Shown here piece after piece: positions 18,754 through 50,900 of a DNA stretch of 64,000 nt. Made by a program: the position numbers and the translations under genes. The notes under the pieces are model-generated. The model ran no database searches. It was given only the letters and a program-made list of their open reading frames with translations, and was not told the DNA's origin. Origin of the DNA: Sipunculus nudus (lineage: Eukaryota; Annelida; Sipuncula; Golfingiida; Sipunculidae); the NCBI GenBank assembly GCA_026874595.1, contig CM049307.1:32654862-32718861 (forward strand). The letters run 5' to 3'. Position 1 is the first letter of the stretch, and every line of letters starts with the position of its first letter.

Positions 18754-21700
18754 ACTTTATTTTATTTACAAAATATCTCATGCCAATTTTATTTCAACTT
18801 CATTTATGCAACACTAAAACCGTTCTTTTAAGAGCAAGAATTTAAAAAATGGAATCTTTTCTAAGTTTTCCTTGATAAGAAGACAAGGAATATGGAAAGG
18901 AACTATAGGTAGACATCATATATATTAAATTAAAGGTAAATTATAAGTTGCCAGTATTTGCCTTCATGACTTTATCAGAGATTATAGTTAAGGATTGGTG
19001 ATATGACCAAACATTATTTATATTATATATATATATCCTTATAATTTCATTATTAATCATTATATATATATAATGATTAATAATGAAATTATAAGGATAA
19101 TAATTTATCATTTTTTTTATAATTTTTAATTTCATTATTATAATTACAGATAGATAATAATAGATAGATTATTGATAACATTGCAACAGATATGACATTT
19201 ACATAAAATAAATATAATTAACTACAAAATAATGATACATCATTGATGAGACATATTATTAAGATCCAATGTGTCCATATATAAACTTTTATCAGAGGAG
19301 GACTATAATATGTAAAATAATTATAAACTTTACAAACTGAGGTCACCATGCCGAATCCAGTGATCATTTGAATTGATAGTGATGAATTGCAGTTCGATGA
19401 TTGACAGGTGTTTTGAAAAAATAGAAGCAAATATTTACAAATGATCAGGTGAACTAGAGTAAACCATTAAAGTGAATTATCATGAAAAGGTATCAGAATA
19501 ATCAGGGTTGGCACAATCTTCCCGGAGGGAAGGGAAGGGAAGAAATACTTTCTTCCCGGAAGGGAAGAAATACTTTCTTCCCACCATTTCTTCCCAGGGA
19601 AGAAATAGATTTACAACATACCTGTCATTCACGTTGTTCAAGTGACATTTTGGCATATCATATTTGTGCAAATCAGAGAGACAACTTTTGTTATATAAAA
19701 AGCTTGCAAACAGACCCTTAGTAGGTGATTGTTATGTGATTTGAGTGATGGGGCTGGATGGTATAGTCTTTAGCCGAGTTGTTGTTGCTGGTGCTGAAGG
19801 CTTGGCTTCTGCTGAGTGATTAAGATGAGTACATACACTGCAGGGATGGAGTTTGGCTTGTAGAGTTGAGCTGGTGTTTGGGTGAATAATTAGGATGAAC
19901 TCAACATGAGTACATACCCTGCAGGGGTGGAGTTTGGCTTGGACAGTTGAGCTGAGTAATTAGGATGAACTCAACATCAACTCACACTCAGTGGACTTGA
20001 GCTGGTGTTTGGGTGAATAATTAGGATGAACTCAACATGAGTACATACCCTGCAGGGGTGGAGTTTGGCTTGGACAGTTGAGCTGAGTAATTAGGATGAA
20101 CTCAACATCAACTCACACTCCAGTGGTGCCTGCACTGTGGGGTTGGTTTTCCAGCTGAGTAATTAAGATGAGCTCAAGCTGAGTTCATTTTGAGTAACTG
20201 CTCACTAATGAGTAGATTACTTAGTTACTGGTCTAGAGGAGGGCTGATATAACCTGACCATATAAAACATTGACATAACTGATCTGCCTCAGTCTGGATG
20301 AGTGAGATAAAGTGTCAGTGTCACTGTTCTCAGTTTGTCAGTTTGATGATTTTATAATGTACAAGGGTGGCAGGAATAGGAAGCCAGTATGGGCTCACTA
20401 CACAGAAGTCCAGACAGATGGAAAAATGATGGTTGAATGCAACTACTGCAAAAGTAAACAGCTGCCTAAAGCATGCAGAATGGAGAATCACTATAAGAAG
20501 TGTACCAGCAAGCCAAGTGTTACAGCACCTGTGGGAAATAAGCGCCCACTGATTTCCGAAGATGTCTGCGAACAACCACCTGCCAAGAAGATATCACAAG
20601 GCGGCCTTGATGCTCATGTGTTGCGCACATCAGAGAGTTCAAAGAACAAGATTGACCAGAACCTAGCCAGATTTTTAGCTCAGCTGACTATAAGTCATCT
20701 GAGCTATAGTCGTGGTCCATTGTCCGTCGTCCGTCCGTCTGGCCGTCCGTCCGTCCGTCCGTAGATGTGGCACGTTTTGAAACCGTAAGACCTATGAATC
20801 CAAAATTCAGCATAATGTTAGATGTCCCCAAGATCTCCCACCAAGCCGAAAACTGGATCTTTGCGACTTCGTTCCTTTGAGAAATTAAGGAAAAACCTCA
20901 ATTTTTTATTAAAATCCTATTTTCACACTTCAGGACTGCCTAATATCAAAACCACTCATCTGTTTTTCCTCATATTTACCATAAATATTCTTCTATATAG
21001 TTCCTATGTACATGCCAGAAATTAAGTCTGTTAAGAATAAATTCTTTAAGTTATGGGCCCAAACTTAATGGACTTTGTAAAAAATCAGGAAAAATATTTA
21101 CTCACTTAACATGAAAAATTTTGAAACTAGAGTCTGTTTTCCCAAGTATATAACTATGTTTAATTAAGATTCAATTGTTTACCCAAAATTAGATCTGAAT
21201 TTTGTAAATTTTTTAAGTAATTAGCATAAAAATAAAATCAGTACCTTAAATTTTGCCCAACTTTGACCATGGCACGTTTTTTTCCTGTAAGTACCATTGA
21301 TTTAATTTTCACAGCATGTAAACATAAATATTTAATTTGTTTAAATCTTATATCTTAAATGTTATGCAGTATTGTTATTGTTTTCACTGTATCTCCTTAA
21401 TTGTAATGCTGCTTCCACTCTGATATGCAAAAACTTTCCTTGAAAAAGTAATTCAAGGTGTAATCCAGAAGATGCAATGTTGTGTAATGTAGCATTTTTA
21501 AAGAAATAATTTTCCTTTTAAATGATTTTACCAATCATAATGGAACCCATCAGTATGCTTAAATTATGATAAAATATGAAGCACATTATGGATAAATAAA
21601 GACACAATTAAAAATTGTAAAATCTAAATCAAGTATTTTTTTTAGATATTTATTGTTTTGCAGATTTAAAAGATATATTTTTGTGGTAAAAAATAAAGTA

Positions 21701-47900: not shown

Positions 47901-50900
47901 GTCATGACCCAAATGTAAACAGACCTCATCCCATAACCCATCTCTCTACATGTGCATAATATGAAAGAAATCTGTCCATTAGTTTTTGACTTATAATGCT
48001 TACAGTACTGTCAAGTGGCAATTATGGTGGTATTAAAAAGCGTAAAAACAAGAAAAGGATAATAGGTGGCGCCACCAGTTTCTGGTATATCACAAGGCTA
48101 TCCAAGATCTTCGGTCACCTTGATATTTTGACCAGTCCATGCAAGCTCACTTGAGATATTTAAGAATTTGTGTTATTTTCAGCAAAAATGGACCTATTCG
48201 AGGTCAAGGTCCCATAGGTCATGACCCCATTTTAAATAGGCTTCGTCCCCTTACCTATATCTATACAAATGTAAAGTTTGAAAAAGATCAGTGAAATATT
48301 TTTTGAGTTATCCTGCTCACAAGGTTTTTCTGCGGCGGGGGGACCGTCGTGAAAACATAGTATCCCGACTTTGTCTGGGGATACAATAATGTTTTCTTAA
48401 TCTTTAAGGTAAAATCTGCCGAAATGTAAAACTTTTGTGAACCCAATAACTTTTGAAGTATTGCATATTTGTGAACTGTTACCAATTTCATTTTTAATTA
48501 ACATAATCTACACAAAAAGCACCCCATACAATAATTGTTACTTCACAAAATATAATAAGATAAATGCCATCTGATCATAACTGCTTACCTCTATGACTCC
48601 TGGTATACAGGTGAGAGTTGTGAACTCATATGAAGCTTGTACACTCTCTGTCTTGGTGACAGTACTAAGCAAGGTGGACTGAAATAAGAGAATACAGCAA
48701 TTACTGACAGAGAAGGAATCACTGACTTTTCATTGCTGAAGTAGAATGATTATAATGTTACAATTATGCAAACAAAATAACATAAAACAAAATGACTTAT
48801 ATCAGATGGAAAATTTTATCTTTTATCTTAGGTAAAAGCCTAAGAATCCCAGAGAGTTTTCAGAGAGCTTGATTTAATCATGAATATAGCTTAAATATGT
48901 CATAACCAGCATGTCTTAATATTCCATCCCCAATTTCATATGGCAAAATATGAAACCCATCAGGAATGTTGGACCTGGTAACATATTGTCATTCCATGTA
49001 ATTAAAGGATAAATGTGTGTTTAGCTCTTCCTTCATAATGATATTTTCTCCTGGAATTCTCCCGCTTTAGTCCTCTCTGTTTTGTTCTGCTACATCCAGA
49101 CATTTCCATTTAATCCTGAAGCCAGTAGCCAAATGGTTCCATAGACAAAGAGGTGTTCAAATACATGCCATTTACAATAAATAACATTCTTGAAAATAAC
49201 CGTTATTCTGAACATGGACAGACCCTGATGGTGCCATTTTCCCCAGAAAATAAACTTTAAAGGCTTGCCTGTTGACAAAAATGCATATCATAAAATTATG
49301 ATAATAGGAAAGTTGACAGTACGATTACTGTAACTGTAAGATATCAAAATAAAACAGGATACCAATAAATGTCCCAACCCTTAATTACTTTCCCTGTTAA
49401 TTTTGATCCATACAATATTTCAGTCAATTTTTATACAAAAAGATCAAGTTGGATTAATTTTATTTTAGTTTCCAACTCACCTTTAAGTGTTTTCTTTTAA
49501 TGATTAAAGCAATATTAAGTACCCCTTCTTAAGAAAACTGAATTTTGCACCATCAAACTCAGTTTTTATGACAGACTGTTCAGTAGATGTAATAATCCTA
49601 CAGTCTACAGAAAAATCCATATAGATTTCAAACAACTGTTATGTACATCCCCAAACAAATTAATTGGATGTTCTCACTCTATGTTATCAACATACACAAC
49701 CACAGATCTGTTTACCTAAGCCAGTATGCATCTTACCTTTCCAACAGAAGGAAAACCAATCAATGCAACCCTTGCATCTCCAGATTTCATAACATCAAAG
49801 CCTTCTCCCTGAAAATTTAGGAAGCCATGAATACAAATCATCAGCAATTAATAGAACTACAAATCTGATAAAATCCTCACTATAATCGAGGGTTTGTGGT
49901 CAGGTACTTGTACCTGTGCCTAGGTACATCATGAGTAGGAAGTACCTTGTGCCTGTACCTCGGACTAAATTTTATGTACAAGGTATAATGTATTCCAGAT
50001 ACAAATATAATACTAAAAATGAACACAACTTGCATGCAGATGAAATTTATAAAAATCTTATTAAATTAAAGGTATCTGAATTGAACCATAGTTATCTAAA
50101 CCTGTAGTCCGGTAACCCAGGTACTTTCTAAAGTACCCAGATCTGTATCCAGGTCCTTGTACCTTACCATCTCACAAGTACCTGCGAATGTTCCTAAATA
50201 CCACCACTTGTACCAGACCGCTGCTTAATCTTACAACTATGACAAAGGCATAACAGGTGACATGTGACATAAACAAAAGCTCAGTTTAGAAGTTCATTTT
50301 TGTCTTATCTTATATAAGTGTCTTGAATATGAGAATAAATATACATATATATAATATATATTATACTACACTGTAACAAAATTATAAAAATATATATAAA
50401 AGATCACAATTATAAGACATGAACACAAGCAATGGAAACAAAACTTGGGTTTTGCTAATCCAGAGTTCGTACATAAAAAAGAGCTGTGGTTATAGGAATT
50501 ACAACCACACTAGCAAAACTGGATGATTAAGAACAATAAGGAGTTGTCTTTTTTTAAGATAGGGATGCTCACCTTTGCTCCTGCTTTGCCTGTTGGCTCC
50601 AGTAACTGAGCCCGGTACTTGGCAAGTTTTGCTTTGAGCAAGCCAAGATGATACTCAGTGGCTGAAATTAAAAGAAACATCATGTAATGATCTGTAATTG
50701 ACATATGCTGGTTGACACTACAATAGATCATTAGTTTGCAAAATACTGATTATTTTTTAAGCTATGGGAAATTATCTTCATATATTTTTACCTATACCTA
50801 TAACTAAATCCTATAACAGCTGGACTGTTGGGGCAGCAAGCCAACAACTCTAATCCTGTTATATCTCTTTCAATCACTGGCAACACTTCACACCCATATA

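Follow-up and report, generated by a model that had tools for sequence, protein, structure and literature searches.

Which kind of repeat makes up the seven hairpin-bounded elements (H1 to H7) in a 64,000-nucleotide stretch of the Sipunculus nudus genome (GCA_026874595.1, contig CM049307.1, positions 32,654,862 to 32,718,861; hereafter the window), and what do elements so unlike in sequence have in common? The seven are very probably non-coding rolling-circle transposons, namely Helentron-associated elements (HINEs), which are moved in trans by an autonomous Helentron and whose tandem cores, where present, would come from one old repeat. They are known in kind and are ordinary HINEs; a sequence-only reading had assigned them to the right class and given them in reversed orientation. 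The interesting and new part is not the elements themselves but a short palindromic core word, AGGTGGCGCCACC, common to otherwise unlike families, which, as judged from the sequences, suggests shared ancestry and perhaps also constraint on active lineages. The elements are listed below, with subTIR denoting a subterminal inverted repeat, IR an inverted repeat and TRF Tandem Repeats Finder.

20677..22330, + strand (HINE sense): H1, HINE without a tandem core, with TT after it; 5' subTIR/IR hairpin from 20677, GTCC microsatellite at 20722-20762 (TRF), 3' palindrome and CTTG to 22330
24443..25321, + strand: H2, HINE-type, 5'-truncated at about 24443; 3' palindrome GACCCATGGGTC and CTTG-TT ending at 25321
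29225..29697, + strand: H3, member of an old HINE family; CTTG-TT 3' end at 29697, 5' edge from the window copy alone
34059..35520, - strand: H4, HINE whose 278-bp core divides into halves of about 139 bp; hairpins at both ends, the 5' one (GTATCCGCC) at 35520 and the 3' one, with CTAG-TT, at 34059
40869..42110, - strand: H5, HINE with a 339-bp core; hairpin of the 5' end (AGCTCAGC) near 42110, a microsatellite of GTCC type seen by eye, and a 3' end with TGGCCCATGGGCCA and CTAG-TT at 40869
44537..45580, - strand: H6, 302-bp core; 5' hairpin near 45580, microsatellite at 45500-45532, 3' hairpin and CTAG-TT at 44537
46107..48384, - strand: H7, HINE-like, core of about 289 bp with many AGGTCA half-sites; hairpins at both ends, the 5' one (GTATCCCC) at 48384 and the 3' one, with CTAG-TT, at 46107 (window copy only, an edge without support from other copies)

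The orientation follows from the layout of the ends. In published HINEs the left (5') module combines a subTIR with an IR and, in many cases, a GTCY-type microsatellite, and a subTIR and a palindrome make up the 3' end (PMC7492417; PMC4067079; here and below, comparisons with the literature cover parts of the cited papers), and a proto-Helentron has been reported, in the part of its description covered, with a 3' CTAG that resembles the CTWG-TT end found here. AAC(T/A)AG does occur where the sequence-only reading had placed it, within 1-2 bases, at one end of H1 to H7 and followed by a hairpin or palindrome, and that reading had taken it for the 5' end. Reverse-complemented, it gives a 3' terminus like that of Helitrons (palindrome, CTWG, TT), and because the strong subTIR/IR hairpin and, where present, the microsatellite lie at the supposed 3' end, the elements had been read backwards. 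The proposal of a hairpin plus AACWAG as a new 5' signature was rejected, as this is the known HINE 3' palindrome with its CTWG-TT end; nor is the combination a specific unifying mark, since a scan of the window returned nine sites, among them two of the listed ends (H4 and H7), and missed the other five. The analysis thereby corrects which end of these elements is 5' and which 3'.

Inverted repeats lie subterminally, with the 5' inverted partner forming a hairpin that is strong in H1, H4, H5 and H6 and weaker in H7. Folding energies of the hairpins at this end, opposite to AAC, were -12.5, -10.9, -9.2, -10.6 and -5.7 kcal/mol for H1, H4, H5, H6 and H7, respectively, and 0, 1, 2, 0 and 30 of 200 shuffles folded as well; the hairpin claimed here for H3 did not hold up (157 of 200). 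The hairpins at the AAC end were weaker (25, 5, 23, 20, 96, 4 and 3 of 200 shuffles as good for H1 to H7 in order), that of H5 being a zero-loop palindrome. A palindrome near the 3' end was found in the window for H1, H2 and H4 to H7, with moderate folding only; both hairpins of H3 are weak in the window copy, and 7 of the 12 relatives fetched retain an unbroken GCACC..GGTGC palindrome. Tandem cores were confirmed in H4 to H7, with periods of 278, 339, 302 and 289 (TRF), and H1 and H3 have none. The GGAC/GTCC microsatellite ascribed to H1, H3, H5 and H6 was detected by TRF in H1 and H6 and by eye only in H3 and H5; H4 and H7 had no microsatellite by TRF and show a GC-rich stretch in their copies. 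In line with a lack of coding capacity, no open reading frame (ORF) of at least 100 aa lies wholly inside any element, two ORFs of a gene interrupted by H1 extending slightly into it. Canonical Helitrons begin with TC, end in a hairpin followed by CTRR and insert between A and T, and their CTRR-T terminus resembles the CTWG-TT end seen here. Assignment to them was rejected: the 3' hairpin and CTWG are similar, but at the 5' end it is AGCTC or GTATCC that follows the T's, and insertion is into a T-run.

The same boundaries recurred in other copies across the genome (1.43 Gb, 153 contigs searched), most clearly for the AAC end of H1, H3, H4 and H6. H1 and H3 are highly repeated (4063 and 3556 first-look candidates, 40 of each scored). 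All eight H1 loci returned, the window copy included, share both ends and run from TT-AGCTCAGCTGACT to GACCCATAGGTCCCTTG-TT between differing flanks, seven with at least five T's and one (L006) with TTGTT. Among the scored H6 matches, 36 of 40 (self included) start at base 1, and the 12 fetched (top non-self) all have AACTAG at the edge, preceded by differing sequence. For H3, 33 of 39 scored non-self matches, at 72-81% identity, extend at least to base 471, and the 12 fetched 3' ends all carry AACAA, nine of them AACAAG. Loci fetched for other reasons gave seven further AAC ends of H4 (four AACTAG, one AACAAG, two AACCAG) and six far ends, one of them divergent. The evidence is thin for H5 (two AAC ends, one AACAAG and one AACAAA, and three far ends), and for H7 two far ends were found in other copies. 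H2, previously listed as a solo end, turned out to be a 5'-truncated copy of a longer family, relatives of which (L008, L003 and the C1 stretches S338060 and S367414) reach further 5' than 24443.

Three empty-site tests, all on H1 copies, addressed the target. In L004 an H1 copy lies inside an H6-type core, with TTTTT in the empty (window) core and TTTTT-element-TT in the filled one; in L008 it lies inside an H2-type repeat that is intact in the window (repeats about 91% identical), with six T's empty and five plus four filled; and in the window H1 splits a transposase-like frame, which stays open only after removal of H1 together with one TT. The interrupted frame (20312-20676 and 22333-23128) is presumably of the hAT/BED type, as judged by eye. 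The restored frame and the two locus comparisons together indicate insertion into T-runs, with the TT being either the element's own or duplicated, and no target duplication was longer than two or three T's. An alternative is a DDE transposase as the source of the elements, which would then be miniature inverted-repeat transposable elements with terminal inverted repeats. The inverted words at the two ends and a TT on each side, readable as a 2-bp duplication, would suit such an origin; the inverted words are, however, offset, with the palindrome and CTWG outside one of them, the layout and T-run target fit a HINE, and these three tests showed no longer duplication, so that we regard a DDE origin as highly improbable. 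The HINE assignment, the pearl-like class of the sequence-only reading, agrees with the layout, the high repetition and the T-run insertion. In L006 and in S338060 (L064/L065), CTTGTT is followed directly by the AGCTCAGC 5' end, resembling head-to-tail junctions; in S338060 a palindrome precedes CTTGTT, and it looks as if one element had been placed at the end of another.

The closest counterparts are the Cg_HINE elements of Crassostrea gigas, which share the 5' subTIR, the IR, a GTCC-type microsatellite (in some of the elements here), central tandem repeats, a 3' subTIR with palindrome, T-rich/TT insertion and the occurrence of several unlike families in one genome (PMC7492417). They differ in their repeat periods (mostly 140-180 bp, compared with 278-339 bp here, H4 halves being about 139 bp) and in that H1 and H3 lack a tandem core; AGGTGGCGCCACC is not given in the sections of PMC7492417 compared. 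By description, DINE-1 and the mite HINEs have similar subTIRs, a 3' palindrome, a microsatellite and a variable number of terminal T's (PMC4067079), and Pearl, DTC84 and MgE of bivalves likewise have short tandem cores between HINE-type ends (PMC7492417).

What do the unlike families share? The word AGGTGGCGCCACC is common to cores or copies of H4 to H7 and to three further core types, F5, F6 and F7 (our own labels, assigned by eye). Allowing up to two mismatches, the window contains 28 strand matches to it, at 14 places, where 0.17 would be expected, and 13 of these places lie within H4 to H7, the remaining one being at 28093.

34210..35204, no strand: eight palindrome places in the H4 core, at 34210, 34358, 34487, 34636, 34766, 34915, 35043 and 35192 (AGGTGGCGCCACC, up to two mismatches)
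41420..41771, no strand: palindrome places in the H5 core, at 41420 and 41759
44934..45249, no strand: palindrome places in the H6 core, at 44934 (one mismatch) and 45237
48064..48076, no strand: single palindrome place of H7, outside its tandem units

Across the genome, exact matches numbered 76,139 on the plus and 76,127 on the minus strand, compared with 5 and 6 for the reversed control; since the strand counts overlap where A and T flank the word, the number of distinct exact sites lies between about 76,000 and 152,000. With one mismatch allowed, there were 180,282 and 180,763 matches (control, 216 and 215), with many of the one-mismatch matches counting a palindrome again on its opposite strand. 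The first 30 places listed on C1, a non-random sample, gave 11 stretches with 33 usable sites, comprising 22 of H4-type, two of H5-type, one of F7, two of H7-type, five of F5 and one of F6; F5 lay outside any tandem array in both loci tested (L069, L055). Outside AGGTGGCGCCACC, eight representatives had a mean ungapped identity of 0.348 (maximum 0.526), and gapped scores revealed clear similarity between H5 and F7 and between H4B and F6, with weaker signals in some other pairs. A degenerate second box, picked out by eye in H4 and H6, had its best match 66-70 bp downstream of AGGTGGCGCCACC in seven of the eight representatives (H5 having an equal match elsewhere) and fell at 64-72 in 38 of 43 sites. 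None of 2000 permuted motifs clustered as well, and 8 of 2000 did so in the five types that had played no part in its choice. Two boxes at similar spacing point to the descent of most cores from one old unit. Elsewhere, the tandem palindrome had no match in viral_contigs and matched two GC-rich bacterial contigs in genome_contigs, a longer word gave 23 single, chance-like matches in viral_contigs, Rfam returned nothing at gathering score, and in the open-licence PubMed Central (PMC) literature 'ggtggcgccacc' appeared in an unrelated context only.

The genome also contains candidate machinery. Helitron_like_N (PF14214) gave at least 143 matches above the cut-off among the 150 candidates scored out of 195, and C11 carries a 2235-codon open frame in which the C-terminal 1463 residues show the Helentron combination of Helitron_like_N, PIF1 and Exo_endo_phos. 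Three frames of this kind agree to 82-87% at the DNA level, with alignments ending five bases past the stop codon. Within the coding sequence of the frames (L039-L044), close to the N-terminus, lies a tandem repeat of about 69 bp (QRIRQNKILDCETPE-like), seemingly variable in number between copies. A CTTGTT hairpin downstream of the Helentron ORF, at A_C11 16305, was rejected as a candidate Helentron 3' end because two copies continue past it at 99.3%. In the mechanism that we propose, Rep would nick at the 5' subTIR/IR end, the nicked strand would be copied out, the 3' palindrome before CTWG-TT would serve as the stop signal, and joining would take place at a TT. The cores would descend from one old repeat, and their boxes may have been important for the lineages that went on spreading, a plausible role being the binding of a host protein such as CTCF; after insertion, individual copies would drift.

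Several results weigh against this account, and they concern both the movement of the elements and the origin of their cores. The net number of extra T's was two in two of the empty-site tests and three in one, which leaves a TT duplication possible, and the AAC edge of H7 was not confirmed, as one relative (L006) matches only from base 9, without AACTAG. The autonomous Rep/helicase element with the same ends that the sequence-only reading had anticipated was not found: three Helentron loci (17 kb each) had no match to the ends of H1 and H3 to H7 (H2's end not queried), there was no AGGTGGCGCCACC palindrome in 158 kb around Helentron Rep domains, and two Helentron copies, 99% alike wherever compared, continue together for about 20 kb (in pieces) with no end reached. 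We infer the link between Helentrons and HINEs, as no Helentron carried HINE ends; the same gap exists in C. gigas, whose HINEs have no identified autonomous partner in the sections of PMC7492417 compared. With regard to the cores, the AGGTGGCGCCACC count stems mostly from one family, since 22 of 33 sampled sites were of H4-type, and the gapped scores relating F6 to H4 and F7 to H5 leave about six groups, not eight. The representatives were picked for carrying AGGTGGCGCCACC, which inflates the apparent sharing. The second box failed the spacing test in H7, and in H5 and F7 its match was no better than shuffles (231 and 253 of 500), only its place being telling. Finally, palindrome columns scored 0.916 in H4A (27 copies), with the others at 0.861 and 79 of 138 of these at or above the palindrome value, and 0.822 in H5 (13 copies), with the others at 0.854. 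These column scores led us to reject strong conservation of the palindrome within families. It was exact in 11 of 27 H4A and 5 of 13 H5 copies, and in H4B (26 copies) the majority line had lost it and gave no score. Because the palindrome is not clearly better kept than its flanks within families, single copies drift, and any constraint acts between lineages, not within families.

This drift suits the leading rival explanation, namely that the palindrome is a functionless relic of the common ancestry of central repeats. Descent from a single unit would account for the two boxes and their similar spacing, and the C. gigas HINE monomers CL1, 2, 10, 13 and CL4 share two segments while the rest differs (PMC7492417). 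Against it, a 13-bp block kept between flanks at 0.348 is hard to explain without constraint, though the representatives had been chosen by the exact word; we consider a pure relic a real possibility that falls somewhat short of probable. Either way, the two-box unit offers a testable answer, host-factor site or ancestry, to why unlike HINE families carry satellite-like cores. HINEs are very abundant in bivalve genomes.

A host factor is suggested by the word itself, as the 13-mer contains AGGTGGCG, the consensus of Drosophila CTCF (dCTCF; PMC5462476). AGGTGGCG or its complement occurs 15 times in the elements and not once in the rest of the window (54,964 bases), and CTCF orthologs are present in molluscs (PMC10658182). 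Through the palindrome, the cores might act as insulators or loop anchors of the CTCF type, and each HINE insertion would then seed a chromatin site. A precedent comes from mammals, in which some short interspersed elements (SINEs) seed CTCF-type chromatin sites; they are alike as a transposon family spreading a CTCF-like word, and in contrast the elements here are rolling-circle DNA elements with repeated sites and a palindromic core, and the likeness is a motif match only. The vertebrate CTCF motif has an upstream CCA, which is absent in the eight representatives, leaving a match to the core alone; moreover, conservation within families is not clear, and a 13-mer may by chance match some motif among those of hundreds of factors. 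Such a role for the cores thus appears rather unlikely. A further word is concentrated in H7.

46299..47741, no strand: 15 words resembling direct repeat 1 (DR1) in the H7 core (AGGTCANAGGTCA, up to one mismatch)

These AGGTCANAGGTCA-type words resemble DR1 sites of nuclear receptors. In total, 18 DR1-like words were found in the elements (15 in H7, two in H3 and one in H4) and none in the window's 54,964 bases outside them. A broader proposal, drawn from motif content and which we regard as unlikely, is that HINE cores spread a palindromic CTCF-core word, legible on either strand, together with a second box at a fixed distance and, in H7, tandem DR1 words, that the unit survived the deep divergence of the families because active lineages needed it, and that this one class of rolling-circle transposon could have supplied much of the genome's set of CTCF-like sites. 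If CTCF binds the core, these transposons, with more than 76,000 words, would be a major source of architectural sites in a phylum with hardly any mapped so far. The open-licence PMC literature contained no paper with both Helentron and CTCF.

The core boxes could alternatively serve the elements directly, as recognition or recombination sites for their replication (iteron-like, or as a motif for monomer exchange). Boxes do lie in the tandem cores of H4 to H6, and motif-driven monomer replacement has been discussed for C. gigas HINEs (PMC7492417). Yet H1 and H3 lack the palindrome in the window and are highly repeated, the fetched Helentron Rep domains have none nearby, as described above, and the single palindrome place of H7 lies outside its tandem units. 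A replication role is accordingly quite improbable in our estimation.

Three of the elements appear to lie in introns: H3 among exon-like stretches (25660-29860) that resemble asparaginyl hydroxylase (HIF1AN-like, by eye), and H6 and H7 among exon-like stretches on the minus strand (42310-48680) that resemble a DRG-type GTPase (by eye). The window also contains arrays of a 31-bp satellite in inverted orientation (14022-14820 and 15449-15683) and inverted arms of CCCATAATGTAATAA-type repeats, up to 98% complementary, at 1289-1473 and 3450-3718.

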